Origin: a virus
IMG/VR virus record: IMGVR_UViG_3300046010_011283
Coordinates: 1 to 23,112 of that record
DNA: 23,112 nucleotides
Strand: one strand, 5' to 3'
Shown here: positions 7,326 to 23,112 of the stretch, in pieces
Layout of the letters: each line of letters begins with the position of its first letter
How positions within the stretch are numbered: position 1 is the first letter of the stretch
Notes under the pieces: model-generated
Databases searched by the model: none
Told to the model about the DNA's origin: nothing
What the model saw: the letters and a program-made list of their open reading frames with translations, nothing else
Position numbers and translations under genes: made by a program

Positions 7326-7762
7326 AAGCAGTGGGCATATGGTATTACTGTTGTTTGACAAACAGATACTTGTACCTATTAAGAAACCATCCAAAAAATC
7401 CAGGATTTTGGGGTTTGCCCGGAGGCAAGCAAGAACAAAATGAAACACTGTTGCAAACCATAGAACGAGAATGCACAGAAGAACTGGGTTTTGTGCCTCG
7501 GCACATGGAGCTGCTTCCTCTGGAAAAATTCACCAGTCTAGACAACAAATTCGAATATCATACTTTTTGGGCCAGCGTGGAAGAAGAATTCACACCAATA
7601 CTGAATCACGAACACATTGGATGGGCATGGATTCAATCAGGGCATTGGCCCAAACCCATGCACCGCGGACTGTGGAATGTGGTCAACGAAGATATTCTTA
7701 AATCCAAAATCACCACAATGGAAAAAGAAAATAATTTTTTGAAAACCACTGTGAAATCATAA
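7307..7762 (+). CDS. Nudix hydrolase
   Basis: A 151-residue protein with a complete Nudix box: G-x5-E-x7-R-E-C-T-E-E-L-G-F, from GGKQEQNETLLQTIERECTE, preceded by the usual GFWGLPGG. Nudix enzymes cleave nucleoside diphosphates linked to another group (NTPs, NDP-sugars, dinucleotides), using Mg bound by the REXXEE glutamates. The ATG at 7307 is preferred over one at 7253 because it begins the conserved first strand and follows AAGGCGG; the 7253 start would lie deeper inside gp15. T4 NudE and other small phage Nudix proteins are similar in size. Substrate cannot be read from the sequence. It adjoins, tail to tail, the ADP-heptose operon (6-base overlap), so an NDP-sugar substrate is possible, but it is co-transcribed with gp14 and gp15. 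Confidence 0.85.
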   Translation: MESYIVKAVGIWYYCCLTNRYLYLLRNHPKNPGFWGLPGGKQEQNETLLQTIERECTEELGFVPRHMELLPLEKFTSLDNKFEYHTFWASVEEEFTPILNHEHIGWAWIQSGHWPKPMHRGLWNVVNEDILKSKITTMEKENNFLKTTVKS

Positions 7763-8512
7763 CCTTAAAATAGATCTAGTTTTGGTCATGTCTGCACAGG
7801 TATAACGCTGATAGCTTGATTTTAGATTGTCCGGCATGGGTATAAATTTAATAGAATTTGTGACTTCCAGTGCCACTGATAAAAAAGACTTAGATTGTCC
7901 TGTGCCTAGATTAAATAAGCCCGATTGGTCAACAGACATAAACCGATTTTGTAAATCAAATACTGTTTCTACTGGAATAAAATCTCTGTAATAGTGTTCG
8001 CTGCCTTCAAATAATTCTACAAAACCCTGTTCTTGATATTGTTTTGCGAACTTTGAATAAGGACTGGCCTGTGCCCCTTTGTGTTCTTCGCCGGGACCGT
8101 AAACATTGAAATATCTAAAACATTGCACCACAATGTCCCAGTCATGTTGTTGAACATATCTCTCAAATAAATATTTTGACCAAGCATAGGGAGTAAGTGG
8201 ATCCGGCGGAGCTGCTTCGTCAAATCTATTATTTTTTCCATAGATGGCTGCAGTTGAAGCAAATTGTAAATTTACACCATGGCGATGGCAATTCTCCAAC
8301 AATGCCACAGAAAAATCATAGTTTTGTTTCATGACTTTTTCCACATCGGTTTCGGTGGTGGAGGTTATAGCGCCCAAATGAACTATCAAATCATAGTCAT
8401 AGCCAGGAAATTGCTGCCCCCATTCGTAGCCGTCTACAACATGGTCTTTTTGTAATCGTTTGTAAAAATATTGGCCTATAAAGCCTTTATGACCGGTTAC
8501 TAGGATCTTCAT
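7757..8512 (-). CDS. hldD: ADP-L-glycero-D-manno-heptose 6-epimerase-like (HldD)
   Basis: A 251-residue extended SDR enzyme. The NAD(P) loop GHKGFIG is at residues 7-13, the active-site Ser is in FASTAAIYG and the YxxxK pair is in YAWSK. The stretch FRYFNVYGPGEEHKGAQAS closely resembles HldD (FRYFNVYGP followed by HKG and an Ala-Ser), which separates it from ordinary UDP-sugar epimerases. HldD inverts C6 of ADP-D-glycero-heptose to give the L,D form used in LPS inner core. E. coli HldD is about 310 residues, so this is compact. It is the last gene of the operon and overlaps the HAD gene by 26 bases; its start is fixed by the N-terminal dinucleotide-binding strand. Confidence 0.8.
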   Translation of the reverse strand: MKILVTGHKGFIGQYFYKRLQKDHVVDGYEWGQQFPGYDYDLIVHLGAITSTTETDVEKVMKQNYDFSVALLENCHRHGVNLQFASTAAIYGKNNRFDEAAPPDPLTPYAWSKYLFERYVQQHDWDIVVQCFRYFNVYGPGEEHKGAQASPYSKFAKQYQEQGFVELFEGSEHYYRDFIPVETVFDLQNRFMSVDQSGLFNLGTGQSKSFLSVALEVTNSIKFIPMPDNLKSSYQRYTCADMTKTRSILRL

Positions 8513-8801
8513 TGAAAAAATTTTCCGAGTTTATGGCTCTATCATCTATCCAAATATCATATGAGGGCTTGAACATTTTTAATTCGTGATATAAACAACC
8601 CCATTGTTTTAATTGATTGTCTGTCAATTCACTCCAATCAATACCGGAATTGCCGCCTCTGGCAGTCCAATACACTATTATGTGCCCATCTTTGTACAAA
8701 TCATTGATTTTTTTAATTCTATCTAGTATAGGTTGACTTTCAAAATATTTACTACCATTTGTAACACAAATAGTATTGTCAATATCAACAATATATTTCA
8801 T
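8487..8801 (-). CDS. Minimal HAD-family phosphatase, candidate heptose-bisphosphatase
   Basis: A 104-residue HAD-fold protein. Motif I is D6-I-D8-N-T10, motif II the Thr in YWTARG, and motif IV the paired Asp in WIDDRAIN. There is no cap domain. The start at 8801 sits in an ATGA overlap with the cupin gene and begins directly with the motif I strand (MKYIVDIDNT); an ATG at 8888 in the same frame would add 29 residues lying inside the cupin gene. Similar small proteins occur in polysaccharide loci. Between heptose kinase/adenylyltransferase and epimerase genes, the obvious role is the missing GmhB step, removing the 7-phosphate of heptose 1,7-bisphosphate. True GmhB is about 190 residues, so this is inference from context. 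Confidence 0.72.
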   Translation of the reverse strand: MKYIVDIDNTICVTNGSKYFESQPILDRIKKINDLYKDGHIIVYWTARGGNSGIDWSELTDNQLKQWGCLYHELKMFKPSYDIWIDDRAINSENFFNEDPSNRS

Positions 8802-9157
8802 TTTTGACTGTCGCCTTTTATAACACGATAATTGTCTTCTACAGAATCTTGTGTGCTGACTTCTATAATGGTGCCTTCTTCCAGGCATTCAAGTTGATGT
8901 GGCAGTAGAGGCATATTTCTCCAAACATTTCCTTCATTCAACTCGTTTTCATATATTGTAGCGGTTTTTGTATCAATATGCCTGACAATAAATTTACCAG
9001 ATAACACATACCAAGTCTCATCTTTCTCGGCATGAAAGTGCATACTAAATTTTGCACCTTGATTAAATTTTAGTAATTTACCGCAATAGAGATCATTGCT
9101 TGCCCATATCAATTCATGACCCCATCCTTTGTGAATTTTGTTCGATTGACCGGTCAT
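8798..9157 (-). CDS. Cupin protein, sugar-phosphate isomerase-like
   Basis: A 119-residue single-domain cupin. The metal-binding first motif is visible as HFHAEKDETWYVLSG (His, His, Glu) and the second as LPHQL. The N-terminus KGWGHELIWASNDLYCGKLL resembles the C-terminal cupin of type II phosphomannose isomerases and stand-alone cupins in polysaccharide loci. It is coupled at both ends by ATGA overlaps, to the kinase upstream and the HAD phosphatase downstream, so it very likely acts in the same heptose pathway. It could be an aldose-ketose isomerase, a sugar epimerase or a regulatory binding protein; the sequence does not decide. Confidence 0.72.
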   Translation of the reverse strand: MTGQSNKIHKGWGHELIWASNDLYCGKLLKFNQGAKFSMHFHAEKDETWYVLSGKFIVRHIDTKTATIYENELNEGNVWRNMPLLPHQLECLEEGTIIEVSTQDSVEDNYRVIKGDSQK

Positions 9158-9894
9158 AATAACTCTCGCAGTTCGGGTGCATATACGCCAACATGTTTCA
9201 CTGTAATTGTTGCTGCTCTAATTGCAAATTCTATCGATTTGACAATATCCTTTGTTTGTAGATACCAAAAACACAAAGAAGCTAAAAAAGTATCTCCAGC
9301 ACCACAGACATCAGTGATTTCTAATTTTGGTGCAGGGTAAACCCTGCCATTGAATCTAGCACCTTTGTCGCCGTTAGTGATTATGATATTGTCGCAGACA
9401 GTTTTGGCTCGATTGTATTCGTTGTTGTTGATTTTGACAAATGCACCTTGAAATCTGGACAGATCAGTTTTTTTTGTATCAATGAACACCGGTTTTCTAA
9501 AACTGATGATTTTTTCCACTAATTCATATGACACAAATCCCTTGTCATAGTCAGATATCACAAATGCATCTACATCCTGATCAAATTCAGTCTGTGTTGA
9601 CAAAGGTTTCGATTCTACATCTCGATCAACTCGAATTATATGTTGTTTGGATCTACGGTCGATCATGCGTGTTTTGGTTGATGGCTGCCCAAAATATTTT
9701 GTGACCGACACTCCCAATTTTTCTAAATTGTCAGCCACATTTGCTGCCATGCCCTGTTTGATTTCAACGGATTCGGGCACAAACACAGGTATCGGAGCTT
9801 CGGGGCTGAGTCTATCTACTCGCCCATAGTAATACTCATCTGTGCACACATCACCGATTAATATAACTTTCAATGATTTTTGTTGTTGATTCAT
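9154..9894 (-). CDS. hldA: D-glycero-beta-D-manno-heptose-7-phosphate kinase (HldA / HldE kinase domain)
   Basis: A 246-residue PfkB-family sugar kinase. GDVCTDEYYYG and RLSPEAPIPV at the N-terminus match the HldE kinase signature (GDVMLDRYWYG, RISPEAPVPV in E. coli). FVISDYDKG matches VLSDYAKG, and CGAGDT at residues 197-202 holds the catalytic base D201. It phosphorylates heptose 7-phosphate to the 1,7-bisphosphate. The E. coli domain is about 318 residues; roughly 30 residues between the GMAANVA helix and TKTRMI are missing here, where the lid/dimer region lies in relatives. The first Gly of GGAANVA is replaced (GMAANVA). It overlaps the upstream adenylyltransferase gene by 44 bases and the cupin by an ATGA. 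Confidence 0.82.
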   Translation of the reverse strand: MNQQQKSLKVILIGDVCTDEYYYGRVDRLSPEAPIPVFVPESVEIKQGMAANVADNLEKLGVSVTKYFGQPSTKTRMIDRRSKQHIIRVDRDVESKPLSTQTEFDQDVDAFVISDYDKGFVSYELVEKIISFRKPVFIDTKKTDLSRFQGAFVKINNNEYNRAKTVCDNIIITNGDKGARFNGRVYPAPKLEITDVCGAGDTFLASLCFWYLQTKDIVKSIEFAIRAATITVKHVGVYAPELRELL

Positions 9895-10249
9895 TGTGCA
9901 TTCTATCGAAAAATTTCAAGGATTTTGCATAGGTGGCTCCTATGACTGTTTGATTTTGCCAATCGGATCCCACTATCATGATGTCTGGTCTATAGTCCTT
10001 GATCAAGTCAATTAACTCATGGTTGTTGTCAAACACAGCCACACGGTCGACCGGTTTTAAATTTTGCATGACAGCCAGTCTGTTGACTTGATTATTAAAT
10101 GGTCGATCTGAACCTTTTTTTTCTGTGATTCTGGCATCAGAATCGATTGCCACAAATAAAAAATCTCCAAGACTTTTGGCATAATTTAATAATTCCAAAT
10201 GCCCTCTATGTAACACATCAAATGTGCCATTTACAAAAACTTTGATCAT
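9851..10249 (-). CDS. hldC: ADP-heptose synthase adenylyltransferase (HldC / HldE C-terminal domain)
   Basis: A 132-residue nucleotidyltransferase. VNGTFDVLHRGHLELL has the HxGH motif (H14, H17) of the cytidylyltransferase superfamily; VAIDSD and RLAVMQNLKPVD follow the HldE C-terminal domain, and the ESTTKIIE stretch near the end matches the family's STTxII signature. It joins AMP from ATP to heptose 1-phosphate, giving ADP-heptose. The closely similar glycerol-3-phosphate cytidylyltransferases are an alternative, but the adjacent kinase and epimerase favour ADP-heptose. It starts in an ATGA overlap with the glycosyltransferase upstream. In E. coli HldE the kinase domain comes first; here the adenylyltransferase gene precedes, so this is not a broken HldE. 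Confidence 0.82.
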   Translation of the reverse strand: MIKVFVNGTFDVLHRGHLELLNYAKSLGDFLFVAIDSDARITEKKGSDRPFNNQVNRLAVMQNLKPVDRVAVFDNNHELIDLIKDYRPDIMIVGSDWQNQTVIGATYAKSLKFFDRMHNESTTKIIESYINR

Positions 10250-11057: not shown

Positions 11058-11672
11058 TTATTTCATTTTGTCTATTAGATCTTGGTATCTACCTGGTTTA
11101 TGCACTCTGATAAAAATATTGACTGTTTCACAGACATTGGACATGGTATTTAAATTTACATTCAATTGGGCCGACCCAATCAAGCCTTGATTTTGTTGAT
11201 TTTTCCAGTATTCAATGATATTGTAACCAACATCAAATACTTCTAGATCAACTGAATGATAAATTCCAAATGTGCTTTCACTTAGTTTTCGTTCAATGGT
11301 ATCAAAATTTAATTTCTGATCAAACATATGAAATGTCTTGGCACTCAATGCCCTCACATGTGTATAGTCATCCCAAAATAAGTCGCAGCGATGATGCGGG
11401 ACACATATGAACCATTCGGCTTGATCTTCGCTGACTCTATACATTTCCTTGATCACATTGGTAAAAACTTTGGGATCTTGACCCAAATGTTCCAGGATAT
11501 TGTCAGCAGTGATTCTGTTAAAAAAATTGTCTTCGTAGGGCCATGGTGTTTGTTCCAGATCCAAAATTTGGTCTGGATTACATCTCGATTCCACATCTAC
11601 ATTCCAATGGTCGTATAATTTTTTAAATCCACAACCCATGTTTAATTTACGCGATTCAGGCAACATAATCAT
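11058..11672 (-). CDS. SAM-dependent methyltransferase
   Basis: A 204-residue class I methyltransferase. Motif I is KLNMGCGFKKLYDHWNVDVE, ending in the acidic strand that binds the SAM ribose. A WPYEDNFFNRITADNILEHL segment gives the motif usual in Methyltransf_11-type enzymes, and FICVPHHRCD follows. Proteins of this type are common in LPS, capsule and phage glycan loci, where they methylate sugars or glycan ends. It starts in an ATGA overlap with the GT25-like gene and is followed by the GT2-like gene, so it probably modifies the same glycan. Target unknown. Confidence 0.78.
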   Translation of the reverse strand: MIMLPESRKLNMGCGFKKLYDHWNVDVESRCNPDQILDLEQTPWPYEDNFFNRITADNILEHLGQDPKVFTNVIKEMYRVSEDQAEWFICVPHHRCDLFWDDYTHVRALSAKTFHMFDQKLNFDTIERKLSESTFGIYHSVDLEVFDVGYNIIEYWKNQQNQGLIGSAQLNVNLNTMSNVCETVNIFIRVHKPGRYQDLIDKMK

Positions 11673-12346
11673 TTTTTCCTTATTTTAATAATTGTTTCGC
11701 CAGGTTGATCATATGCATAAAATCCTGTTTGAATAATTGCAATATCATCTGATCTAATCATGACATCTGCACTTTCGAAAATCCCCCTAGACAGCACATT
11801 TGTAAATAATTTTCTTGCAGCCGCAGGATCTATTGAATAGGCATGTGCACGATTTATAAAATTCCAATTTTTGTTGATACCACTGAATGTCGGTATGATA
11901 CCTTGATTTTCTTTGGAGTTTTTTAAATTATCCTGTGATCCCAAATAGTCTATGCCATTGTAAATTCTGTGTTCTAAATAGGGTTTCAGCATGATGGCAT
12001 CATGCTCCAATATCACTATGGGTCGATCTTGTTCCATGCATTTGACCCACAATGATATATGACTGAGACTGCATGCTATTTCGGCCAAACTTTGATAATG
12101 ATCTGTGACTTTGAGCCATTTATACCAACTTTGATTTCTGATCAAACTGGGCACTACTAGTTCATTGCCAGTCCCGTTGAATCCTTCCCACAACTCAGCT
12201 GAATAATTTATTTTTTTACAACTTTCCAAACATCTATTGGCCAAATTTACAGATATATGGCTGTCAGGCACGTATATGATATATGCATTTTCTATTTTTA
12301 GATTATAACTATTATACAAAAATTTTACCGATTCAGGACTATTCAT
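11669..12346 (-). CDS. GT25-like (LPS) glycosyltransferase
   Basis: 225 residues from the ATG at 12346, which comes one base after the stop of the oxygenase gene; another ATG at 12415 would add 23 residues overlapping that gene. Neither has a ribosome site, so reinitiation from the upstream stop is likely. The sequence NAYIIYVPDSHISVNLANR at the N-terminus, then ACSLSHISLWVKCMEQDRP and IVILEHDAIM, fits glycosyltransferase family 25: a first strand with a nearby Ser/Arg, the CxxSH element, and an E-x-D metal site. GT25 members add galactose or other sugars to LPS core or to other acceptors. RAHAYSIDPAAARKL is also typical of the family. Confidence 0.72.
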   Translation of the reverse strand: MNSPESVKFLYNSYNLKIENAYIIYVPDSHISVNLANRCLESCKKINYSAELWEGFNGTGNELVVPSLIRNQSWYKWLKVTDHYQSLAEIACSLSHISLWVKCMEQDRPIVILEHDAIMLKPYLEHRIYNGIDYLGSQDNLKNSKENQGIIPTFSGINKNWNFINRAHAYSIDPAAARKLFTNVLSRGIFESADVMIRSDDIAIIQTGFYAYDQPGETIIKIRKK

Positions 12347-12347
12347 A

Positions 12348-12935
12348 TTATGATTGTTTAAAATTATACGATATGCTGATTCGAATTTGATCAGATTCGT
12401 GTCTTTCCACTGCATGATTGAGATAACTGGGGAAAATTATCAACATGCCGGGAATTGACTGACACTGTATTTGATCAACCATTTCCTGTTTTACCACAGT
12501 TTTTTTAACATGATACATGTTGTTGATGGGAGTGTTGAAAAAAATTCTAGCACCACGGCTGTCACAGCATAACACATATATTGCAGATACCACACTGGTG
12601 GGGTGCACATGATTTTCCTGAAAATCATGTTTTCTGTAAATATTAAACCAAGACCCATTGTTGGTCAAATTTTGAGATTGTATATTCAAGCGATTGCAAT
12701 AATACTCAACTGATGTTCGAACCCATTGATTTAACTTTGAAAAATTTGCATCTGAGAAAATATCATATTGTCCATTGCTGGTGTTGTATGTTTTGTTGGA
12801 CAGCCATCCAGTGCCCCCAGTGGCAATTTCTGTGCTCAATTGTAAACAATGATCTACTAATTCTTTTTCCATACTGGCGTGATCGGGGTTGGTTATATTT
12901 CCAATCACTGTGGGGAAAAAAGAATCTAGATTCAT
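12348..12935 (-). CDS. Putative 2-oxoglutarate/Fe(II) oxygenase
   Basis: 195 residues from the ATG at 12935, which overlaps the sulfotransferase stop by one base (TAATG); an ATG 18 bases upstream is less likely. The N-terminus (MNLDSFFPTVIGNI) and later parts follow the putative 2OG-Fe(II) oxygenase family common in cyanophages: WFNIYRKHDFQENHVHP with H109 and H111, SAIYVL, and IIFPSYLNHAVERHESDQIR with H174 and R185 as probable iron and 2-oxoglutarate ligands. Such enzymes hydroxylate proteins, sugars or small molecules. Within a glycan operon a modified sugar or a glycosylation-site residue is a possible substrate. Confidence 0.78.
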   Translation of the reverse strand: MNLDSFFPTVIGNITNPDHASMEKELVDHCLQLSTEIATGGTGWLSNKTYNTSNGQYDIFSDANFSKLNQWVRTSVEYYCNRLNIQSQNLTNNGSWFNIYRKHDFQENHVHPTSVVSAIYVLCCDSRGARIFFNTPINNMYHVKKTVVKQEMVDQIQCQSIPGMLIIFPSYLNHAVERHESDQIRISISYNFKQS

Positions 12936-13729
12936 TATACCCATGCATTCCAAAAAATTTCTCTATTGTATTGTTCAAATAAATCCAACCCCAAGTATTC
13001 AACACAATTCACGGTGGTTTTGGAAATTGTTGGTTTGATCTTGTGTAGATTCGGTAATCCCACTGCTAGATCGTTATATACTTCATCTTGTGATATGTTG
13101 TCAAAATCGTGAGCAAACTCAGTTAACTCAAAAAACTCATAGATTCTTTTCATTTGGCTTCTGGGACTATTACAAAATCTATTGTAGTCTACAAATAAAA
13201 ATCTATCCAAATAACCCATGATAATTGCATCTTTGATATGGCGATGTGCCATGCCCATTGCACCATCTGGTCCAGCATAATAGTATGCTCTTGATGCAAT
13301 ATTGGAACTTTCTTTGAGTTGTTGATCTGCACGAGTAAAAAACAAAGGATTTTCTTTTCTTAGTCGTTCAAAGGAGGTCAATATTTCAGCTGGATTTCTA
13401 ACACAGACAATTATTTTGACTTGACGTTGTATGACCGATTCTATGACAGGTATCAAAGGTATCCAACCTCGATCTTTGTCAAAAATAATATTTTTGTCTA
13501 TATGACTGTAGTATCCTTGAAGAACTCCGGTCAAAACTCCTGTTTTGGCAGAGGAATTTTTATATTCTTGATTTGATTCAAATTGATTCCAGTTGGCGTT
13601 GATTGTTCCAACCAACGATGCCAACGAACTGACCGATTCGCCGTGTATTTCGGGATTTTGTTTTAGAATATTGGCAATAAGCGTGGACCCGGATCTTGGC
13701 AATCCGGAAATAAAATGCAAAACTTTCAT
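12935..13729 (-). CDS. PAPS-dependent sulfotransferase-like protein
   Basis: A 264-residue protein of the P-loop sulfotransferase fold. SGLPRSGSTLIANIL at residues 8-22 is the 5'-phosphosulfate-binding loop, and IVCVRNPAEILTSFERL around 106-122 is the 3'-phosphate-binding element with its conserved Arg and Ser. These enzymes move sulfate from PAPS to sugar or protein hydroxyls. No PAPS synthesis gene is visible, so host PAPS would be needed. Phage relatives exist in marine T4-like genomes near glycosyltransferases. It has AAGG before the ATG and an AATAAATA octamer 28 bases upstream. The next gene begins in its stop codon. Confidence 0.75.
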   Translation of the reverse strand: MKVLHFISGLPRSGSTLIANILKQNPEIHGESVSSLASLVGTINANWNQFESNQEYKNSSAKTGVLTGVLQGYYSHIDKNIIFDKDRGWIPLIPVIESVIQRQVKIIVCVRNPAEILTSFERLRKENPLFFTRADQQLKESSNIASRAYYYAGPDGAMGMAHRHIKDAIIMGYLDRFLFVDYNRFCNSPRSQMKRIYEFFELTEFAHDFDNISQDEVYNDLAVGLPNLHKIKPTISKTTVNCVEYLGLDLFEQYNREIFWNAWV

Positions 13730-13782: not shown

Positions 13783-14817
13783 CTATATTTTTTTCTTTGG
13801 AAATTTCAACAACAGTTCGTCCCTTACCTGTTGAAAAGTATCAGTCCATTGACCGAATTTATTTTGTCTATAAACCACAGTTTGTTCGCTGTACCAAGGA
13901 CTGTGTCGATCACCATGTGCCCAAATATGATAAGGTAATATGGGAACAATCACCCAGGTTGGTTTGCCCATGGCCGATGCCAAATGAGCGATACTGGTGC
14001 AACTGGTGATTATCAAATCTAAATTTTCTATGGCAGCAGCAGTGTCTTCCCAACTTATTAATATGTGATTGAGATCTTGTATTTCACTGGGCAATTCTCT
14101 TAGATCATTGTCTCTTTGTAGACTATAAAATTGAATATGATCATTGTCTTTGTGTAGATCAATTAACATCTCTGGAGGAAATATTCTGAATTGTTGATGC
14201 TCAAATTTTGGATTACCACTCCAACGAATACCCACTTTGAACTTGTCAGATTTGATTATGGATTTCCATATTTCCACACTGTCAGGTTTGGCAAAAATAT
14301 AAGGCTCATTGGGCATGTTTTCTGCTGTATGACCAAATATCCAACTGCAACTAAAGCCCGGTATCCAAAAATCATGATAGGTCATTTCAACTTGATCCAG
14401 AGTGATACACTGATCTACACCAGGTATTCTCATAAAAATACTATGCACTGTTTTGTCACAACATAATATGCATTTACCACCGCGAGTCCATACTTCGGTT
14501 GCAAATCTTGCTTGTATGATATTGTCACCATAACCGGCCTCTAAGTTTATGATCAGCGTTTTTCCTTTGAGATCACTGCCATCCCATATGGGTTTATTGG
14601 TGTTTAATTTTGGCGCACCATAGACATTGAGTGATCTGCCATACTCTAGACATTGAAATCCTTCTTGAAATTTGCCTTGGTGTATTAAAAACCAACCTCT
14701 ATTGAATTTTGCTCGACGATCATCAGGATACAATTTTTCTAGTTCTTCGGCAATACGCCACCCTTCATCAAAACGCCCACGAATCATTAAATTTAACTGC
14801 TGATCTATTAAATGCAT
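13783..14817 (-). CDS. TPR plus GT9-like (heptosyltransferase-fold) glycosyltransferase
   Basis: A 344-residue two-part protein. Residues 1-65 are TPR-like helices (RRAKFNRGWFLIHQGKFQEG). From about 84 comes a GT-B fold: GKTLIINLEAGYGDNIIQAR corresponds to the Gly-rich first loop of heptosyltransferases (GDIL/GDxI), then VGIRWSGNP, and the C-terminal DLIITSCTSIAHLASAMGKP, the donor-site motif of GT9 and related TPR-GT proteins. GT9 enzymes use ADP-heptose, which the genes downstream would make, so a heptosyl transfer is attractive. TPR-GT fusions can also act on other donors. The ribosome site is poor (GATGGAA). Late-type octamers lie at 14843 and 14873. Confidence 0.75.
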   Translation of the reverse strand: MHLIDQQLNLMIRGRFDEGWRIAEELEKLYPDDRRAKFNRGWFLIHQGKFQEGFQCLEYGRSLNVYGAPKLNTNKPIWDGSDLKGKTLIINLEAGYGDNIIQARFATEVWTRGGKCILCCDKTVHSIFMRIPGVDQCITLDQVEMTYHDFWIPGFSCSWIFGHTAENMPNEPYIFAKPDSVEIWKSIIKSDKFKVGIRWSGNPKFEHQQFRIFPPEMLIDLHKDNDHIQFYSLQRDNDLRELPSEIQDLNHILISWEDTAAAIENLDLIITSCTSIAHLASAMGKPTWVIVPILPYHIWAHGDRHSPWYSEQTVVYRQNKFGQWTDTFQQVRDELLLKFPKKKI

Positions 14818-14872: not shown

Positions 14873-14880
14873 TATTTATT
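14873..14880 (-). promoter_or_regulatory. Second late-type octamer overlapping the RCC1 stop codon
   Basis: A second AATAAATA on the minus strand includes the TAA stop of the giant RCC1 gene (14876-14878). Both copies here are preceded by C (CAATAAATA) and lie 30 bases apart. It may be an alternative start for glycan-operon transcription or coincidence. Confidence 0.3.
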
Positions 14881-17800
14881 GTGAATAATTCCACGGAAAA
14901 ATATCATTTGTGGTCAAACCACCGGTGTGTTCGAGACCTGCCGAAACCACAGTCCAACTGCTGCTGCCTACTTGAACCGGGCTGCTGCGATCCACTGTGT
15001 CTCCAAGTCCCAATTGCCCCGACGGATTAGCGCCCCAGGTGAACAATCCACTATCACTCCGTAACGCAGCGGTATGTGTGCCACCGGCTGAAACCGCTGT
15101 CCAACTGCTGCTGCCTACTTGAACTGGACTGGATTTATCGACAGTGCTACCATCACCTAATTGTCCACTGGTGTTTAGTCCCCAAGTAAACAATGTTCCA
15201 CCACTCCGTATGGCTGCGGTATGTGTGCCACCTGCAGAAACCACAGTCCAACTGCTGCTGCCTACTTGCACTGGACTGGATCGGTTGGCGGTGGCATCAT
15301 CACCTAATCGACCACTGGTGCCCGATCCCCAGGTGAATAATCCCCCATCGCTGCGTAACGCAGCGGTATGCAAGTCACCGGCTGAAACCACAGTCCAACT
15401 GCTGCTGCCCACTTGAACCGGGCTGCTGCGATTAGCTGTGTTACCATCGCCCAATCGACCTGATCCACCAGCACCCCAGGTGAATAATCTACCATCACCC
15501 CGTAACGCAGCGGTATGAGTGCCACCGGCTGAAACCGCAGTCCAACTGCTGCTGCCGATCTGCACTGGACTTGATTTGTTGTCAGTGGTGCCATCACCTA
15601 ATCGACCTGATCCACCAGCACCCCAGGTGAATAATCCCCCGTCACTGCGTAACGCAGCGGTATGAGAGCCACCTGCAGAAACTGCAGTCCAACTGCTGCT
15701 GCCGATCTGCACTGGACTGCTGCGAACCACTGTGGTGCCATCGCCCAATCGACCAAAAGCACCAGCACCCCAGGTGAATAATCCCCCGTCACTGCGTATG
15801 GCAGCGGTATGAGAGCCACCTGCACTGACTGCTCGCCAGGACGTTACTGTATTACCGCCTCCTATTAGAACAGGGCTGGATTGATTGCTGATAGATGGAA
15901 GTAGTGTTATGTTTCCGATAAAAACCGGACTGCTGCGGTTGATTATAAAATTGTCACCCAACTGCCCCGACCCACCGGCACCCCAGGTGAATAATCCACT
16001 GTCACCTCGTAACGCAGCGGTATGAGAGCCACCTGCTGAAACCACAGTCCAACTACTGCTGCCCACTTGTACTGGGCTGCTGCGAGCCACTGCGTCCCCG
16101 CCACCTAATCGGCCATCGGTGCCTAATCCCCAGGTGAATAATCCACTGTCATCTCGTAATGCAGCGGTATGAGAGCCACCAGCTGAAACCACAGTCCAAC
16201 TACTGCTGCCCACTTGAACCGGACTGCTGCGACTCACTGTGTTCCCAAGACCCAATCGCCCATTGGTGCCGAGCCCCCAGGTGAATAATCCACTATCACT
16301 CCGTATAGCTGCAGTATGATCTTGACCAGCACTGACCACAGTCCAACTACTGCTGCTTACTTGAACTGGGCTACTTTCACTGAATGACTTGACCAATACT
16401 GGACTGTTTCTCGAGACCGTGTCATCAAGACCTAATCGACCAAATAATCCATCACCCCAGGTAAACAACGAGCCACCATTTCTGATGGCTGCGGTATGTG
16501 TGCCACCAGCTGAAACCACAGTCCAACTACTGCTGCCCACTTGTACTGGGCTTGATTCGCTGCTAGTGCTACCAAGACCTAATCGCCCATCGCTGCCGAG
16601 TCCCCAGGTGAATAATCCACCATCACCCCGTATGGCTGCAGTATGATCTTGACCAGCACTGACCACAGTCCAACTACTGCTGCCCACTTGAACCGGACTG
16701 CTGCGACTCACTGTGTTCCCAAGACCCAATCGCCCAAAGGTGCCTAATCCCCAGGTGAATAATCCACTATCACTCCGTATAGCTGCAGTATGATCTTGAC
16801 CAGCACTGACCACAGTCCAACTACTGCTGCCCACTTGAACTGGGCTACTTTCACTGAATGACTTGACCAATACTGGACTGTCTCTCGAGGCAGTGGTGTC
16901 ATCGCCCAATCGACCAAAATCACCATTTCCCCAGGTGAATAATCCACCATCACCCCGTATGGCTGCGGTGTGTGCGTTACCTGCAGAAACCACAGTCCAA
17001 CTGCTGCTGCCCACTTGAACCGGGCTGCTGCGATTAGCTGTGTTACTAAGACCTAATCGACCAAAAGAACCAGCACCCCAGGTGAATAATCCCCCGTCAC
17101 CTCGTAACGCAGCGGTGTGTGCGAGACCTGCCGAAACCACAGTCCAACTGCTGCTGCCTACTTGAACTGGACTGCTGCGATCCGCTGTGTCCCCAAGACC
17201 TAATTGACCACTAAATCCAAATCCCCAAGTAAACAATGAGCCACCACTTCTGATGGCTGAAGTATGTGTGCCACCGGCACTGACCACTGTCCAACTACTG
17301 CTGCCCACTTGAACTGGGCTACTTTCACTCAGTGCCTTGACCAATACTGGACTGGATCTGCTGAAAGCGGTGTCACCACCTAATCGACCTGATCCACCAT
17401 CACCCCAGGTAAACAACGAGCCACCACTTCTGATGGCTGCGGTATGAGAGCCACCTGCAGAAACCACAGTCCAACTGCTGCTGCCGATCTGCACTGGACT
17501 GGATTTGCTGACAGTGCTACCATCACCTAATCGCCCATCGCTGCCGAGCCCCCAGGTGAATAATCCACTGTCACCTCGTAACGCAGCGGTGTGTGCGAGA
17601 CCTGCCGAAACCACAGTCCAACTGCTGCTGCCTACTTGAACCGGGCTGCTGCGATCTACTGTGTCTCCAAGACCCAATTGCCCCGACGGATTAGCGCCCC
17701 AGGTAAACAACGAGCCACCACTTCTGATGGCTGAAGTATGTGTGCCACCGGCACTGACCACTGTCCAACTACTGCTGCCCACTTGAACTGGGCTATTTGC

Positions 17801-20800
17801 ACTCAGTGCCTTGACCAATACTGGACTGGATTTGTTGACAGTGCTACCATCACCTAATTGACCTGCTCCACCAACACCCCAGGTGAACAATGTACCATCA
17901 TTTAGTTTAGCTGCAGTATGCACACCAACTGAGACCGCAGCCCAACTGCTGCTGCCTATTTGCACTGGACTGGATTTGCTGTTAGTGCTATTATCACCTA
18001 ATCGACCTGTTCCACCTTGCCCCCAGGTGAACAATCCACCATCGCTGCGTATGGCTGCAGTATTTGCGTCACCGGCTGAAACCACAGTCCAACTGCTGCT
18101 GCCCACTTGAACCGGGCTGCTGCGATCCGCTGTGTCATTAAGACCCAATCGACCAATTAATCCTTCTCCCCAGGTGAATAATCCACCACCACTTCTGATG
18201 GCTGCGGTGTGTTCTTCACCTGCCGAAACCACAGTCCAACTACTGCTGCCGATCTGCACTGGACTTGATTTGCTGACCCTGGTGTCATCGCCCAATCGAC
18301 CAAAACCACCATTACCCCAGGTGAACAATCCACCATCGCTGCGTAACGCAGCGGTATGAGCGCCACCTGCTGAAACCACAGTCCAACTGCTGCTGCCTAC
18401 TTGAACCGGGCTGCTGCGATCCACTGTGTTCCCATCGCCCAATCGACCTGATCCACCAGCACCCCAGGTAAACAACGAGCCACCACTTCTGATGGCTGCG
18501 GTATGTGTGCCACCAGCTGAAACCACAGTCCAACTACTGCTGCCCACTTGAACCGGGCTGCTGCGATTAGCTACGCCATCGCCTAATCGACCTGATCCAC
18601 CAGCACCCCAGGTGAATAATCCACTATCACTGCGTAACGCAGCGGTATGAGAGGCACCTGCTGAAACTGCAGTCCAACTACTGCTGCCTATTTGAATCGG
18701 CACGGATTGACTGGCAGTGGTACCATCACCCAATCGACCAAAGGTGCCTAATCCCCAGGTAAACAATAGACCATCACCCCGTATGGCTGCAGTATGAGAG
18801 GCACCTGCTGAAATCGCGGTCCAACTGAATCCTTCAAAGCCCAACTGCCCACTGGTGTTTAACCCCCAGGTGAATAATCTACCATCACCCCGTAACGCAG
18901 CGGTATGAGTGCCACCGGCTGAAACCGCAGTCCAACTGCTGCTGCCTACTTGAACTGGGCTGCTGCGATTAGCTGTGTCTCCAAGACCTAATCGACCATT
19001 GCCACCATTACCCCAGGTAAACAACGAGCCACCACTTCTGATGACTGCGGTATGAATGTCACCGGCTGAAACCACAGTCCAACTGCTGCTGCCCACTTGA
19101 ACCGGGCTGCTGCGATTAGCTGTGTCTCCAAGTCCCAATTGCCCCGACGGATTAGCGCCCCAGGTGAATAATCTACCATCACCCCGTAACGCAGCGGTAT
19201 GTGTGCCACCTGCAGAAACCACAGTCCAACTGCTGCTGCCTATTTGAATCGGCACGGATTGACTAACAGTGGTACCATCACCTAATTGTCCATTGGTGCC
19301 TAATCCCCAGGTGAACAACCGGCTATCACTGCGTATGGCTGCAGTATGTGCGCCACCTGCTGAAATCGCGGTCCAACTGAATGCATCAAAGCCCAACTGC
19401 CCACTGGTGTTTAGTCCCCAGGTGAACAATAGACCATCACCCCGTAACGCAGCGGTATGTGTGCCACCGGCTGACACCACAGTCCAACTGCTGCTGCCCA
19501 CTTGAACTGGACTGCTGCGATCCACTGTGGCACCATCGCCCAATCGCCCACTGCTGCCAAACCCCCAGGTGAACAATAGACCATCACCCCGTATGGCAGC
19601 GGTATGTGTGCCACCGGCTGAAACCGCAGTCCAACTGCTGCTGCCTACTTGAACCGGGCTGCTGCGATTAGCTGTGTCTCCAAGTCCTAATCGACCATTG
19701 CCACCAAACCCCCAGGTGAACAATCCACCATCACCCCGTAACGCAGCGGTATGAAAGTCACCGGCTGAAACCACAGTCCAACTGCTGCCGCCCACTTGAA
19801 TCGGCACGGATTGACTGACAGTGGTACCATCACCTAATTGTCCACTGGTGTTTAGTCCCCAGGTGAACAACCGGCTATCACTGCGTATGGCTGCAGTATG
19901 TGTGCCACCTGCTGAAATCGCGGTCCAACTGAATGCATCAAAGCCCAACTGCCCACTGGTGTTTAGTCCCCAGGTAAACAATAGACCATCACCCCGTAAC
20001 GCAGCGGTATGTGTGCCACCGGCACTGACCGCAGTCCAACTGCTGCTGCCTACTTGCACTGGACTGGATCGGTTGGCCGTGGCACCATCGCCCAATCGCC
20101 CAAAACCACCATTACCCCAGGTGAACAATCCACCATCGCTGCGTAACGCAGCGGTATGAGCGCCACCTGCTGAAACCACAGTCCAACTGCTGCTGCCCAC
20201 TTGAACCGGGCTGCTGCGATTAGCTGTGTTACCATCGCCCAATCGACCAAATTCACCATTTCCCCAGGTGAATAATCCACCATCACCCCGTATGGCAGCG
20301 GTATGAGAGCCACCTGCTGAAACCACAGTCCAACTACTGCTGCCTATTTGAATCGGCACGGATTGACTGACAGCGGTACCATCACCTAATTGTCCACTGG
20401 TGTTTAGTCCCCAGGTAAACAACAGGCTATCACTGCGTATGGCTGCAGTATGTGCGCCACCTGCTGAAACTGCAGTCCAACTGAATGCATCAAAGCCCAA
20501 CTGCCCATTGGTGTTTAGTCCCCAGGTAAACAATAGACCATCACCCCGTAACGCAGCGGTATGTGTGCCACCGGCACTGACCGCAGTCCAACTGCTGCTG
20601 CCTACTTGCACTGGACTGGATCGGTTGGCGGTGGCACCATCGCCCAATCGACCATTGCCACCATTACCCCAGGTGAATAATCTACTGTCACCCCTGATGG
20701 CTGCGGTATGAAAGTCACCGGCTGAAACCACAGTCCAACTGCTGCTGCCCACTTGAACCGGGCTGCTGCGATTAGCTGTGTTACCATCGCCCAATCGACC

Positions 20801-21883
20801 TGATCCACCATCACCCCAGGTGAATAATCCACCATCATCTCGTAACGCAGCGGTGTGTGCGAGACCTGCCGAGACCACAGTCCAACTGCTGCTGCCTATT
20901 TGAACTGGACTGGATTTAGCGACAGTGCTACCATCACCTAATTGTCCACTGGTGTTTAGTCCCCAGGTAAACAACAGGCTATCACCCCGTATGGCTGCAG
21001 TATGTGCGCCACCGGCCGAAACTGCAATCCAACTGTATGTATCAAAGCCCAACTGCCCACTGGTGTTTAGTCCCCAGGTAAACAATAGACCATCACCCCG
21101 TAAGGCTGCGGTGTGTGTGCCACCAGCCGAAACCGCAGTCCAACTGCTGCTGCCTATTTGCACTGGACTGGATCGGTTGGCTGCGGTTTCGTCACCCAAC
21201 TGTCCATTGGTGCCCGATCCCCAGGTGAATAACGAGCCACCACTCCTGATGGCTGCGGTGTGTTCGAAACCTGCAGAAACCGCAGTCCAACTGCTGCTGC
21301 CGATTTGCACCGGACTGCTACGAGCTACTATATCCCCAAGACCCAATCGACCTAATGTGCCGAGCCCCCAGGTGAATAATCCACCATCACCCCGTATGGC
21401 TGCAGTATATTGATCACCGGCCGAAACCACTGTCCAACTACTGCTACCTATTTGCACCGGGCTGCTTCGATTCGCTGTGTCTCCAGTGCCCAATTGACCG
21501 TTTGTACCTGCTCCCCAAGCAAACAACAGCCCATCATTTCTTATTGCTGCAGTATGCACACCACCGGCCGAAACTGCAGTCCAACTGTATGCCGGTCCCA
21601 GATATTCGACATAACCCAGCCGGCCCAATGATCCCAATCCCCATGTGTATAAAAATAATGTGGCACCAACAGAACCGGCTGCTGCAAATAATTGACCTAT
21701 GTCCGTGTTGTTGCTTTGATAATCAGTGGTGCCATAGGGGGTTCCTTCGGATGCATTGGCATAAAAATTAGATATGTCTGTGCCTGCACTCAGATAACCC
21801 ACATCTGCCCGTTTGGCTGTATCACCGATGGGCTCAAACAACGAATCTAAATCAATGTTATTAACTAGATAATTAGACGGCAT
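14876..21883 (-). CDS. Giant RCC1-repeat protein, probable fibre or adhesin
   Basis: A 2335-residue protein built almost wholly from about 46 RCC1-type repeats, each ending in a [FYA]TWG-like strand start and carrying G[RQ]LG, SSPVQ[IV]G, SSSWT[VA]VSAG and HTAA[IL]R. RCC1 repeats form blades of beta-propellers, so six or more propellers could follow one another. Most repeats are 49 residues; every fourth unit from 1 to 21 is short (about 37), and every third from 28 to 40 carries an extra segment. The N-terminal 80 residues differ and have three copies of a [IT]D[LI]xxL/FF-like motif as in phage fibre proteins. No signal peptide or membrane segment. It lies 9 bases after the chaperone-like gene with no Shine-Dalgarno. 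The composition is visibly more GC-rich than neighbours. Function as virion adhesin is inferred from position and architecture. Confidence 0.85.
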   Translation of the reverse strand: MPSNYLVNNIDLDSLFEPIGDTAKRADVGYLSAGTDISNFYANASEGTPYGTTDYQSNNTDIGQLFAAAGSVGATLFLYTWGLGSLGRLGYVEYLGPAYSWTAVSAGGVHTAAIRNDGLLFAWGAGTNGQLGTGDTANRSSPVQIGSSSWTVVSAGDQYTAAIRGDGGLFTWGLGTLGRLGLGDIVARSSPVQIGSSSWTAVSAGFEHTAAIRSGGSLFTWGSGTNGQLGDETAANRSSPVQIGSSSWTAVSAGGTHTAALRGDGLLFTWGLNTSGQLGFDTYSWIAVSAGGAHTAAIRGDSLLFTWGLNTSGQLGDGSTVAKSSPVQIGSSSWTVVSAGLAHTAALRDDGGLFTWGDGGSGRLGDGNTANRSSPVQVGSSSWTVVSAGDFHTAAIRGDSRLFTWGNGGNGRLGDGATANRSSPVQVGSSSWTAVSAGGTHTAALRGDGLLFTWGLNTNGQLGFDAFSWTAVSAGGAHTAAIRSDSLLFTWGLNTSGQLGDGTAVSQSVPIQIGSSSWTVVSAGGSHTAAIRGDGGLFTWGNGEFGRLGDGNTANRSSPVQVGSSSWTVVSAGGAHTAALRSDGGLFTWGNGGFGRLGDGATANRSSPVQVGSSSWTAVSAGGTHTAALRGDGLLFTWGLNTSGQLGFDAFSWTAISAGGTHTAAIRSDSRLFTWGLNTSGQLGDGTTVSQSVPIQVGGSSWTVVSAGDFHTAALRGDGGLFTWGFGGNGRLGLGDTANRSSPVQVGSSSWTAVSAGGTHTAAIRGDGLLFTWGFGSSGRLGDGATVDRSSPVQVGSSSWTVVSAGGTHTAALRGDGLLFTWGLNTSGQLGFDAFSWTAISAGGAHTAAIRSDSRLFTWGLGTNGQLGDGTTVSQSVPIQIGSSSWTVVSAGGTHTAALRGDGRLFTWGANPSGQLGLGDTANRSSPVQVGSSSWTVVSAGDIHTAVIRSGGSLFTWGNGGNGRLGLGDTANRSSPVQVGSSSWTAVSAGGTHTAALRGDGRLFTWGLNTSGQLGFEGFSWTAISAGASHTAAIRGDGLLFTWGLGTFGRLGDGTTASQSVPIQIGSSSWTAVSAGASHTAALRSDSGLFTWGAGGSGRLGDGVANRSSPVQVGSSSWTVVSAGGTHTAAIRSGGSLFTWGAGGSGRLGDGNTVDRSSPVQVGSSSWTVVSAGGAHTAALRSDGGLFTWGNGGFGRLGDDTRVSKSSPVQIGSSSWTVVSAGEEHTAAIRSGGGLFTWGEGLIGRLGLNDTADRSSPVQVGSSSWTVVSAGDANTAAIRSDGGLFTWGQGGTGRLGDNSTNSKSSPVQIGSSSWAAVSVGVHTAAKLNDGTLFTWGVGGAGQLGDGSTVNKSSPVLVKALSANSPVQVGSSSWTVVSAGGTHTSAIRSGGSLFTWGANPSGQLGLGDTVDRSSPVQVGSSSWTVVSAGLAHTAALRGDSGLFTWGLGSDGRLGDGSTVSKSSPVQIGSSSWTVVSAGGSHTAAIRSGGSLFTWGDGGSGRLGGDTAFSRSSPVLVKALSESSPVQVGSSSWTVVSAGGTHTSAIRSGGSLFTWGFGFSGQLGLGDTADRSSPVQVGSSSWTVVSAGLAHTAALRGDGGLFTWGAGSFGRLGLSNTANRSSPVQVGSSSWTVVSAGNAHTAAIRGDGGLFTWGNGDFGRLGDDTTASRDSPVLVKSFSESSPVQVGSSSWTVVSAGQDHTAAIRSDSGLFTWGLGTFGRLGLGNTVSRSSPVQVGSSSWTVVSAGQDHTAAIRGDGGLFTWGLGSDGRLGLGSTSSESSPVQVGSSSWTVVSAGGTHTAAIRNGGSLFTWGDGLFGRLGLDDTVSRNSPVLVKSFSESSPVQVSSSSWTVVSAGQDHTAAIRSDSGLFTWGLGTNGRLGLGNTVSRSSPVQVGSSSWTVVSAGGSHTAALRDDSGLFTWGLGTDGRLGGGDAVARSSPVQVGSSSWTVVSAGGSHTAALRGDSGLFTWGAGGSGQLGDNFIINRSSPVFIGNITLLPSISNQSSPVLIGGGNTVTSWRAVSAGGSHTAAIRSDGGLFTWGAGAFGRLGDGTTVVRSSPVQIGSSSWTAVSAGGSHTAALRSDGGLFTWGAGGSGRLGDGTTDNKSSPVQIGSSSWTAVSAGGTHTAALRGDGRLFTWGAGGSGRLGDGNTANRSSPVQVGSSSWTVVSAGDLHTAALRSDGGLFTWGSGTSGRLGDDATANRSSPVQVGSSSWTVVSAGGTHTAAIRSGGTLFTWGLNTSGQLGDGSTVDKSSPVQVGSSSWTAVSAGGTHTAALRSDSGLFTWGANPSGQLGLGDTVDRSSPVQVGSSSWTVVSAGLEHTGGLTTNDIFPWNYSQ
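15915..17870. repeat. 474-bp higher-order repeat (3 RCC1 blades) inside the giant gene
   Basis: The string ttgaccaatactgg on the plus strand starts at 16389, 16863, 17337 and 17811, exactly 474 bases apart. Each marks a repeat with an 11-residue insertion (LVKxxSxxSPV), every third blade. A fifth, diverged insertion occurs in register near 15915 (FIGNITLLPSISNQSSPV). Ends are approximate. Confidence 0.85.
18281..21600. repeat. 552-bp higher-order repeat (4 RCC1 blades) inside the giant gene
   Basis: The plus-strand string [at]tcaaagccc starts at 18833, 19385, 19937, 20489 and 21041, exactly 552 bases apart. Each marks a short blade (FDxxSW in place of DGxTVxxSSPVQIGSSSW), every fourth repeat. 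A sixth short unit (unit 1, ending GPAYSW) lies in register near 21593. Neighbouring copies differ by only a few bases over more than 150. Ends are approximate. Confidence 0.88.
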
Positions 21884-21892
21884 AATTTAAAA

Positions 21893-22366
21893 TCAATATT
21901 CAGGCCAAATGATATTTGATAAATCTTCCTGGTTGGTTATGTCTGCCAAGGCTTGCATGTAATTATCAAGGTTTTCCAATGAATCGGTTGTTGGTAACCC
22001 TAACCTAATTTGCCTATGATAACGAGTATATCTCCATTCAAAATCACGCATTTTTTCATCGCGAACTATTCTTATTTCTTTTAATAGGTCGTCTCTGGTG
22101 GGCACATATATGACTTTTTCCAGTATTTCTCTTTGTTCAATCACTTGATTATTTTCCACTCGGTAACTGGGAAAATCACTCAAGTAATGTGTGTCAGAAT
22201 CGTATTGATACTGAGATTTGACAATTTTTACAAAATTATTGTCTCTCATATACTGTTCATCATTTTGACATCTGATATCAAATTGATTTATTCCATCCCA
22301 GAACTTGGGTATGAGATCATATACCCCTTTGACTTCGCCTTCAACTAAATTTGCATATACAGTCAT
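21893..22366 (-). CDS. Small tail-fibre assembly chaperone-like protein
   Basis: A 157-residue acidic protein. The C-terminal half (LLKEIRIVRDEKMRDFEWRY, then GLPTTDSLENLDNYMQALAD and NIIWPEY) fits phage tail-fibre assembly chaperone families: a RDxxLxxxDW-like helix, a helical L-Y-x-QAL segment and a terminal WP. Such proteins assist folding or trimerisation of the adjacent fibre. It starts in an ATGA overlap with the S74 fibre gene and uses the GGGAGG ribosome site encoded in that gene's last codons. The giant RCC1 gene starts 9 bases after its stop, so its client could be either neighbour. Assigned from pattern and position. Confidence 0.6.
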   Translation of the reverse strand: MTVYANLVEGEVKGVYDLIPKFWDGINQFDIRCQNDEQYMRDNNFVKIVKSQYQYDSDTHYLSDFPSYRVENNQVIEQREILEKVIYVPTRDDLLKEIRIVRDEKMRDFEWRYTRYHRQIRLGLPTTDSLENLDNYMQALADITNQEDLSNIIWPEY

Positions 22367-23112
22367 TGTTCCTCCCTTTGTTTGATTTTTAATTCATTGA
22401 TTTGACATTGCTGTTCTTTGATTGCTTCGATTAATAAACCGATTATACTGTCATAATTTACACTCTTGACACCACCGCTGTCAGTATTTACAATTTCCGG
22501 TACCACTTTTTCAATCTCTTGAGCGATAATACCAATTGATTTGTTTTTGTTGTCCTTCCAAACAAAACTTACACCTCGCATTCTTAGAACTTTTTCTAAA
22601 GAATTGGCAATAGTTTCTATATTTTCCTTGCTATTTATGTCAGACAAAGTATTGAAAATTGTGGCATTCAAAGTACCTGTACTGGGATTAAAATATAGTT
22701 TGGTGGTAGTAACTTTTGGTGTTTCTGAATTGCCTGCCGATGCCACAAATACTGGATAGAAACTGGCGTTGGTAGTGGTATCGTTGGTGGCAGTCAACGC
22801 ATTGCCTGGACCGGATATACCTTGTATCCCTTGTGTGCCCTGTGTGCCCTGTGTACCTTCAGTGCCTTGTGTGCCTTGTGTGCCTTGTGTACCTTGTGTG
22901 CCTGTTCCGCTTGTTCCTTGTGTGCCGGTTGTTCCTTGACTTCCTGATCCGTCCAGACCCTGTATGCCCTGTGTGCCCTGTGTGCCTGTTCCACTTGTGC
23001 CTTGGATACCCTGTGTGCCCTGTGTACCTGCTCCAGTAATACCTTGTATGCCCTGTGTACCCTCGGTGCCCTGTGTACCCTGTGTACCTGCTCCAGTGAT
23101 GCCCTGTATGCC
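22363..23112 (-). CDS. Collagen-like tail fibre with S74 intramolecular chaperone, N-terminus beyond the window
   Basis: The reading frame is open from the right edge (249 residues visible, 5' end missing). Residues 1-103 are collagen-like G-x-y triplets, mostly GTQ, with regular GxG interruptions (GAGTQ, GTGTQ, GSGSQ). A linker of about 50 residues (LYFNPSTGTLNATIFNTLSD) leads to a peptidase S74 domain: SDINSKENI carries the Ser and Lys (S157, K162 here) of the self-cleavage dyad, followed by FVWKDNKNKSIGIIAQEIEK, VPEIV and VNYDSIIGLLIEAIKEQ. S74 domains help fibre trimers fold and then cut themselves off. A TTG at 22797 could be misread as a start; the frame continues upstream without a stop. 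Confidence 0.87.
   Translation of the reverse strand, partial: GIQGITGAGTQGTQGTEGTQGIQGITGAGTQGTQGIQGTSGTGTQGTQGIQGLDGSGSQGTTGTQGTSGTGTQGTQGTQGTQGTEGTQGTQGTQGIQGISGPGNALTATNDTTTNASFYPVFVASAGNSETPKVTTTKLYFNPSTGTLNATIFNTLSDINSKENIETIANSLEKVLRMRGVSFVWKDNKNKSIGIIAQEIEKVVPEIVNTDSGGVKSVNYDSIIGLLIEAIKEQQCQINELKIKQREEQ
22800..23112 (-). repeat. Collagen-like Gly-X-Y coding repeat
   Basis: About 35 GGN-ACA-CAR-type triplets (G-T-Q, G-I-Q, G-T-E) in tandem with periodic loss of one position giving G-x-G. The array reaches the window edge, so its length is unknown. It forms the shaft of the S74 fibre. Confidence 0.85.

Follow-up and report, generated by a model that had tools for sequence, protein, structure and literature searches.

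A viral RCC1-repeat gene probably encoding seven-bladed propellers inserted into one another

The window—that is, the whole stretch of DNA analyzed here—is an IMG/VR virus record of 23,112 bases, and a large RCC1-repeat open reading frame (ORF) lies within it among the following genes.

12935–13729, minus strand: sulfotransferase, 264 aa, part of the conserved downstream set
13783–14817, minus strand: 344-aa protein with no family match, directly downstream of the RCC1 ORF; a similar-sized (~350-aa) protein lies there in relatives
14876–21883, minus strand: RCC1-repeat ORF, 2335 aa, 46 blades, ATG start, without an internal stop
21893–22366, minus strand: tail-fibre assembly chaperone-like protein, 157 aa; PF16778 just under the cut-off, with the counterparts in L021 and L103 above it
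22363–23112, minus strand: C-terminus of a collagen-like tail fibre with an S74 chaperone domain; ORF open at the window end

The order of S74/collagen fibre, tail-assembly chaperone, RCC1 gene, ~350-aa protein, and sulfotransferase is kept in several relatives, and the RCC1 gene is encoded within a tail-fibre gene set. A T4 gp15-like sheath stabilizer and other T4-type genes are also present in the window, and fit a T4-like myovirus. The G+C content of the RCC1 gene (14876–21883) is 0.54, compared with 0.38 in the rest of the window, with a difference in the same direction at all 10 related loci checked.

Counting by the [F/L]TWG motif yields 46 blade units, the same number as originally predicted. 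The spacing of this motif (in aa) is 42, then (49, 49, 49, 37) five times, then 49, 48, 49, 49, 49, 48, and 60 in the first part, followed by (49, 49, 60) three times, then 49, 49, and 71, and finally 49 five times in the remainder. Pfam RCC1 (PF00415) matches the ORF 45 times, always above the curated cut-off, which places the protein in the RCC1 repeat family; PF13540 and PF25390 also match, and the relatives in the PDB are UVR8 (the best, with an E-value of 6e-53), HERC2, RPGR, and RCC1. A normal blade is 49 aa long and contains, in chain order, strands A (WTVVSAG), B (HTAALR), and C (LFTWG), a GRLG loop, and strand D (SSPVQVGSSS), which continues directly into strand A of the following blade. 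Since the outermost strand of a blade leads to the innermost strand of the next in propellers in general, we take strand D to be the outermost one. Two variants of this blade occur: a short blade of 37 aa without strand D (that is, without the SSPVQVG outer strand; sequence ...GQLGFDAFSW), and a long blade of 59–60 aa (in one case 71) with two D-type strands, SSPVLVKALSESSPVQVGSSSW. Independently of the motif count, five Pfam RCC1 matches are truncated (at 21041, 20492, 19940, 19388, and 18836), and five are elongated. Across the 34 regular blades, variation peaks at positions 8–9 (the A–B turn, SAGxxHT), 25, 27–28 (the loop after TWG), 35, and 38, positions that would suit a binding surface presenting many slightly different copies.

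The 37-aa short blades recur exactly every 552 bp in the N-terminal half of the gene, and the long blades, with their 11-aa insertion, exactly every 474 bp in the C-terminal half. Both periods had been predicted, and each was found by DNA autocorrelation to be the dominant peak of its half (identity 0.84 and 0.77, respectively, with an identity of 0.57–0.58 at one blade, or 147 bp). As for the membership of the two series, units 5, 9, 13, 17, and 21 are short as predicted, with unit 1 (42-aa spacing) being an inexact and divergent member; similarly, four of the five predicted insertion units (28, 31, 34, 37, and 40) agree, with unit 40 (71 aa) diverging in its insertion of 22 aa, the sequence of which is unlike that of the other long blades. 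When blade cores are compared, identity is 0.85 at lag 4 versus 0.72–0.74 at lags 1–3, and this period of four was equalled by none of 5000 order shuffles; the period of three in the C-terminal half is weaker on blade cores alone, and was equalled by 227 of 5000. Duplication at the level of blocks, also predicted originally, is supported both by the identity at 552 and 474 bp within each arm and by a relative differing by exactly one 4-blade block.

The key relation between the two periods is 4 + 3 = 7: a block of four blades and one of three are best taken as halves of one seven-bladed propeller that is discontinuous in the chain. In this bracket reading, a short blade is an opening and a long blade a closing, and blades are counted per closed frame. 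The protein of the relative L009 (IMGVR 3300046009_009407), with 42 blades, is parsed in this way into six propellers of seven blades: the tip (blades 18–24), then 14–17 with 25–27, 10–13 with 28–30, 6–9 with 31–33, and 2–5 with 34–36, and lastly blade 1 with 37–42, the base frame, which strand C at the N-terminus closes together with strands A and B at the C-terminus. Under this pairing, the first short blade (42 aa) is matched with the last long blade (71 aa), both of them divergent. Viral contigs were surveyed with an RCC1 two-blade alignment and, in a second survey, with a short-junction alignment. Short and long blades proved to be general in a group of large viral RCC1 proteins, including those with much more diverged blades, and in many diverged proteins the short intervals have no D motif and the long ones two. 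In the first set, 37 of 43 clean closed frames contain seven blades and two contain 14, as compared with a mean of 1.85 and a maximum of 8 sevens in shuffled token orders; in the wider set of 89 non-redundant ORFs, 56 of 74 contain seven and five contain 14 (null mean 3.1, maximum 13), with token thresholds set by hand and adjusted between the two sets after the bracket idea—the result being clear with the first thresholds already—and with frame counts that are not fully independent, because several of the proteins are related. Among 13 distinct balanced token strings, 49 of the 52 frames, including the base, amount to seven blades, two to 14, and one to six. An all-seven parse arose by chance in 0–2 of 200,000 shuffles for each of L009, L021, L030, L033, and L145. 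Across the viral proteins, the splits vary among 4+3, 5+2, 3+4, 2+5, and 4+1+2. With last-in-first-out (LIFO) pairing of short and long blades, 51 of 53 pairs enclose a multiple of seven blades; the earlier supposition that the blocks might form unusual propellers is not supported. The strand composition of short and long blades, their balance, and the near-constant count of seven can be read directly from these proteins. In the nested register, blades are weakly more alike in 12 of 15 proteins, although block duplication is a partial confounder for the window and L009.

Our preferred explanation, in which we have good confidence, is that the gene product is tail-associated and consists of seven-bladed RCC1 propellers with recursive insertion of one into another. 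That one chain forms a linear or branched tree of such propellers under a balanced-bracket rule, with natural phage populations resizing the tree by blade-block recombination, is a wider and still likely proposal. We infer the three-dimensional fold and the strand return of the nested propellers as follows. The chain would leave a short blade after strand C, where strand D would normally follow, and form an entire inserted propeller, and the absence of the outermost strand D from short blades would be due to this departure; the long blade would end the inserted propeller, its extra D strand returning to complete the short blade of the host. In the linear form, as in L009, each propeller would thus consist of four blades laid down outward and three on the return, with a tip of seven contiguous blades and a base propeller closed by both chain termini. 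The insertion, in the C–D loop of host blade 4, would lie roughly opposite the host's own insertion point in its parent, so a 4+3 series should, judging from the topology, give a row of propellers with two linkers each. The result may be a fairly rigid rod of propellers joined by paired linkers, with branches in other members of the group. The window ORF is divided accordingly in the list below, in which the wording of the parts follows the bracket reading.

21656–21883, minus strand: N-terminal non-repeat domain, aa 1–76, probable virion anchor; similar N-termini in L017, L023, L033, L051, L101, and L116
21584–21655, minus strand: blade 1, N-terminal strand C of the putative base propeller and first short (opening) junction, 42-aa spacing
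21032–21583, minus strand: N-arm 4-blade block 1, blades 2–5, ending in a 37-aa short blade
20480–21031, minus strand: N-arm 4-blade block 2, blades 6–9
19928–20479, minus strand: N-arm 4-blade block 3, blades 10–13
19376–19927, minus strand: N-arm 4-blade block 4, blades 14–17
18824–19375, minus strand: N-arm 4-blade block 5, blades 18–21
20249–20800, minus strand: 552 bp missing from L009, position exchangeable by up to 80 bp; leaves one opening junction unpartnered
17798–18823, minus strand: tip, blades 22–28, seven contiguous between the last short and the first long blade
17324–17797, minus strand: return-arm 3-blade block with an extra outer strand (SPVQVGSSS), blades 29–31, long blade last
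16850–17323, minus strand: return-arm 3-blade block, blades 32–34
16376–16849, minus strand: return-arm 3-blade block, blades 35–37
15884–16375, minus strand: return-arm 3-blade block, blades 38–40, with the divergent 71-aa long blade
14879–15883, minus strand: C-terminal blades 41–46 and terminal strands A and B, expected to make blade 1 complete (in L009, the base propeller)

In the best parse, only the tip consists of seven contiguous blades, as opposed to the seven contiguous blades per propeller of classical RCC1 proteins; the other frames are interrupted hosts, and an insert is itself a host. AlphaFold2 predictions for the N- and C-half proteins, which separate the predicted partners, had a mean pLDDT of 52 and 50, respectively, values too low for the models to inform on the fold. 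Growth by copying whole propellers is not supported, since the similarities of N- and C-blocks are uncorrelated between nested partners in L009 (rho 0.12). The N-terminal 75 aa had no match among 50,697 annotated phages, and the idea that they form a widespread phage domain was rejected, one diverged viral contig being the only match besides L009; further N-termini similar to that of the window were noticed solely among nested RCC1 proteins.

Several relatives extend the picture. The most telling protein is that of L021, with 49 blades in seven parsed propellers split 4+3, 5+2, 3+4, and 4+1+2, each sum being seven. In the branched L030, L033, and L145, one propeller would host two inserted ones; L030 appeared irregular under the first thresholds, with one short and one long blade misread, and gives all sevens with the adjusted ones. 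The apparent imbalance of L101 and L051 stems from one N-terminal short blade in each that was missed by the motif scan, and the 1483-aa protein of L116 gives sevens by eye if an interval of 118 aa is counted as two blades. The only clear exception found is the 1069-aa RCC1 ORF of L116, with a clean inserted (child) frame of six blades. Small members, such as L035 (711 aa, 14 blades), L133 (1116 aa, 21 blades), and L144 (1124 aa), are also balanced. The closed frames of 14 blades belong to L040, L103, L105, and L112, and apparently represent two tandem propellers with one insertion in common. Larger and more diverged viral RCC1 ORFs (L069–L074, L077, and L079), of up to 5441 aa and 80 blades, are parsed by the motifs only in part and badly. 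With respect to a bacterial origin, one genome scan returned only five loci, 44–48% identical over the query, and no bracketed ORF among them was parsed.

As assembled, the window and its near-identical relative L009 differ in the number of blocks. The L009 contig matches the window nearly base for base upstream and downstream of the RCC1 gene, and its RCC1 coding sequence is that of the window except for three adjacent bases and exactly 552 missing bp, the junction of which falls inside an 80-bp exact repeat. A contig from a third sample, L010, is identical to the window over 9.9 kb bar one base, and reaches just the last RCC1 blades. L009 is balanced, but the window protein, with six opening and five closing blades, is not; indeed, after corrections, the window is the sole clearly parsed complete ORF with an unclosed short blade (L142 having only doubtful tokens). 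The chances are about even that the 46-blade arrangement of the window is in part an assembly artefact with a wrong block number, the nested family being real, and this would be compatible with recursively inserted propellers. The longest exact repeat inside the gene is 121 bp, with many of 60–99 bp, so a short-read assembler could misjudge the number of blocks. However, 318 31-mers of the window are absent from L009, and L009 has 33 private 31-mers and a three-base difference of its own; at least part of each version is thus backed by sequence peculiar to it, and the two cannot be accounted for entirely by one having simply collapsed into the other. The window copy may thus be described as carrying one unpaired 552-bp block, and is either a wrong assembly or a recent unequal recombinant unable to fold in a fully nested form. 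If the assembly is wrong, it either has a surplus 4-blade block or lacks a 3-blade block, and the true number of blades would be 42 or 49, respectively.

The position of the gene between the collagen/S74 fibre with its chaperone and the sulfotransferase makes a tail adhesin likely. Judging from these gene neighbours, it is rather more probable than otherwise that the RCC1 protein is a host-binding (adhesin) or spacer part of a T4-like phage tail-fibre system, with the variable loops as the likely contact surface. RCC1 itself binds chromatin, and BLIP-II binds beta-lactamase, which gives some weight to action inside the host instead of on the virion, with the protein packing DNA or inhibiting a host protein; furthermore, ordering of DNA in the capsid was proposed for the RCC1-like proteins of phage phAPEC6 (PMC7247149). 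Such an in-host role is nevertheless improbable, as the RCC1 gene directly follows the tail fibre and tail chaperone genes in several relatives, and mass spectrometry identified an RCC1-like protein of phage GAP32 as a structural component of its virions (PMC5259590).

The original prediction envisaged two separate rounds of duplication. Two unrelated block amplifications in series, of four blades and then three, would yield unusual propellers of 4/8 and 3/6/9 blades, and would agree with the strong 552- and 474-bp identity inside each arm as well as the exact loss or gain of one 552-bp block between near-identical contigs. This history is very unlikely, and the claim of unrelated rounds is not supported, because the same short/long system occurs with other block sizes in many diverged viral proteins, in which lower blade identity is still accompanied by sums of seven, and because the tip has seven blades in the window, L009, L021, L030, L033, and L040. 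Similarly small is the probability of strand exchange between oligomer subunits, with the surplus strand of a long blade in one chain filling a short blade in another. Propellers in general are known to complement strands or blades across chains, and sequence alone cannot separate cis from trans; exchange in trans, however, needs neither LIFO order nor closed frames of seven blades in a single chain. Least probable of all are plain sequential seven-bladed propellers with short and long blades as mere loop length variation: although blade totals are multiples of seven in 28 of 41 full ORFs (more after corrections), and the bracket-free L026 (14 blades) and L055 (21 blades) look like plain tandem propellers, the positions of short and long blades vary modulo 7 along the chain, there is no excess similarity in the sequential register in the window or L030, and sequential, first-in-first-out pairing was rejected with multiples of seven in 17 of the 53 pairs overall and, where the two pairings differ, in 2 of 37 versus 36 of 37 for LIFO. 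Recursive insertion is the reading that we retain.

The blades of the window ORF belong to the same family (PF00415) as those of the RCC1/UVR8/HERC2-type seven-bladed propellers. Proteins of this type are single contiguous propellers, and to our knowledge none has a series of strand-deficient and strand-surplus blades. Recently amplified repetitive propellers, the largest of 47 blades, have been surveyed as WRAP propellers (PMC6805158; PMC9218822); these resemble the window protein in having many near-identical blades per chain (mean blade-core DNA identity in the window, 0.75) and in raising the same assembly doubts. However, WRAP amplification starts from single blades, whereas in the window the 4- and 3-blade periods dominate over lag 1, and these units complement each other to seven. 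Cyanobacterial RpoC2 SI3 shows a six-level nested domain insertion of the A1-B1-C-B2-A2 type (PMC13114784), and thus domains within domains to about the same depth as L009, which is parsed as five insertions deep; the difference is that in L009 the RCC1 fold would be inserted in itself, at the C–D loop of a blade, with a constant blade count. Among phages, two related Kyanoviridae isolates, S-SRM01 and BUCT-ZZ01, carry RCC1 genes: those of S-SRM01 likewise adjoin tail-fibre genes, upstream of a TPR protein and a sulfotransferase, but are three genes of about seven blades each, and that of BUCT-ZZ01, also next to a tail-fibre gene, is one gene of 14 blades; neither phage has short/long brackets. 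GAP32, 121Q, and phAPEC6, the last with eleven RCC1-like proteins (PMC7247149), encode theirs as separate genes, for which nesting was not reported. Each of three elements is already known: RCC1 propellers, highly repetitive propellers, and nested domain insertion. The original prediction that no phage protein of nested design has been described stands in that no account of propellers nested or inserted by this strand rule, or of such phage RCC1 proteins, was found in the open-access literature searched, and needs qualification in that phage RCC1 genes themselves are not new (PMC5259590; PMC7247149).

If recursive insertion is true, these proteins would show how a single fold, placed recursively in itself under a readable rule, can yield a long or branched chain, a design so far undescribed, and sequence would tell which blades share a propeller and whether the tree is linear or branched. 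Among the questions that would become testable are how repetitive propellers of 40–50 blades partition, a point left unsettled for the protein with 47 blades (PMC9218822); how balance can evolve if any one tandem duplication upsets it; and what advantage a phage draws from long rods of propellers next to the tail fibres. The balance rule would also serve as an internal check on assembly, with an unbalanced string flagging an error or a recent recombinant.

Other genes of the window include a GT25 glycosyltransferase, a 2OG-Fe(II) oxygenase, and the sulfotransferase, at 11669–13729 (minus strand), near the collagen-like tail fibre; these putative enzymes may modify the fibre or the RCC1 protein. 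The collagen-like GTQGTQ tract of the fibre gene is coded by tandem repeats of a nine-base unit (22820–23085, minus strand). Genes of ADP-heptose-type biosynthesis lie at 7757–10249 (minus strand), namely an HldD-like epimerase (7757–8512) and two ORFs (9154–9894 and 9851–10249, minus strand) for the HldE domains, kinase and adenylyltransferase, all with strong E-values that are under the curated NCBIfam cut-offs.
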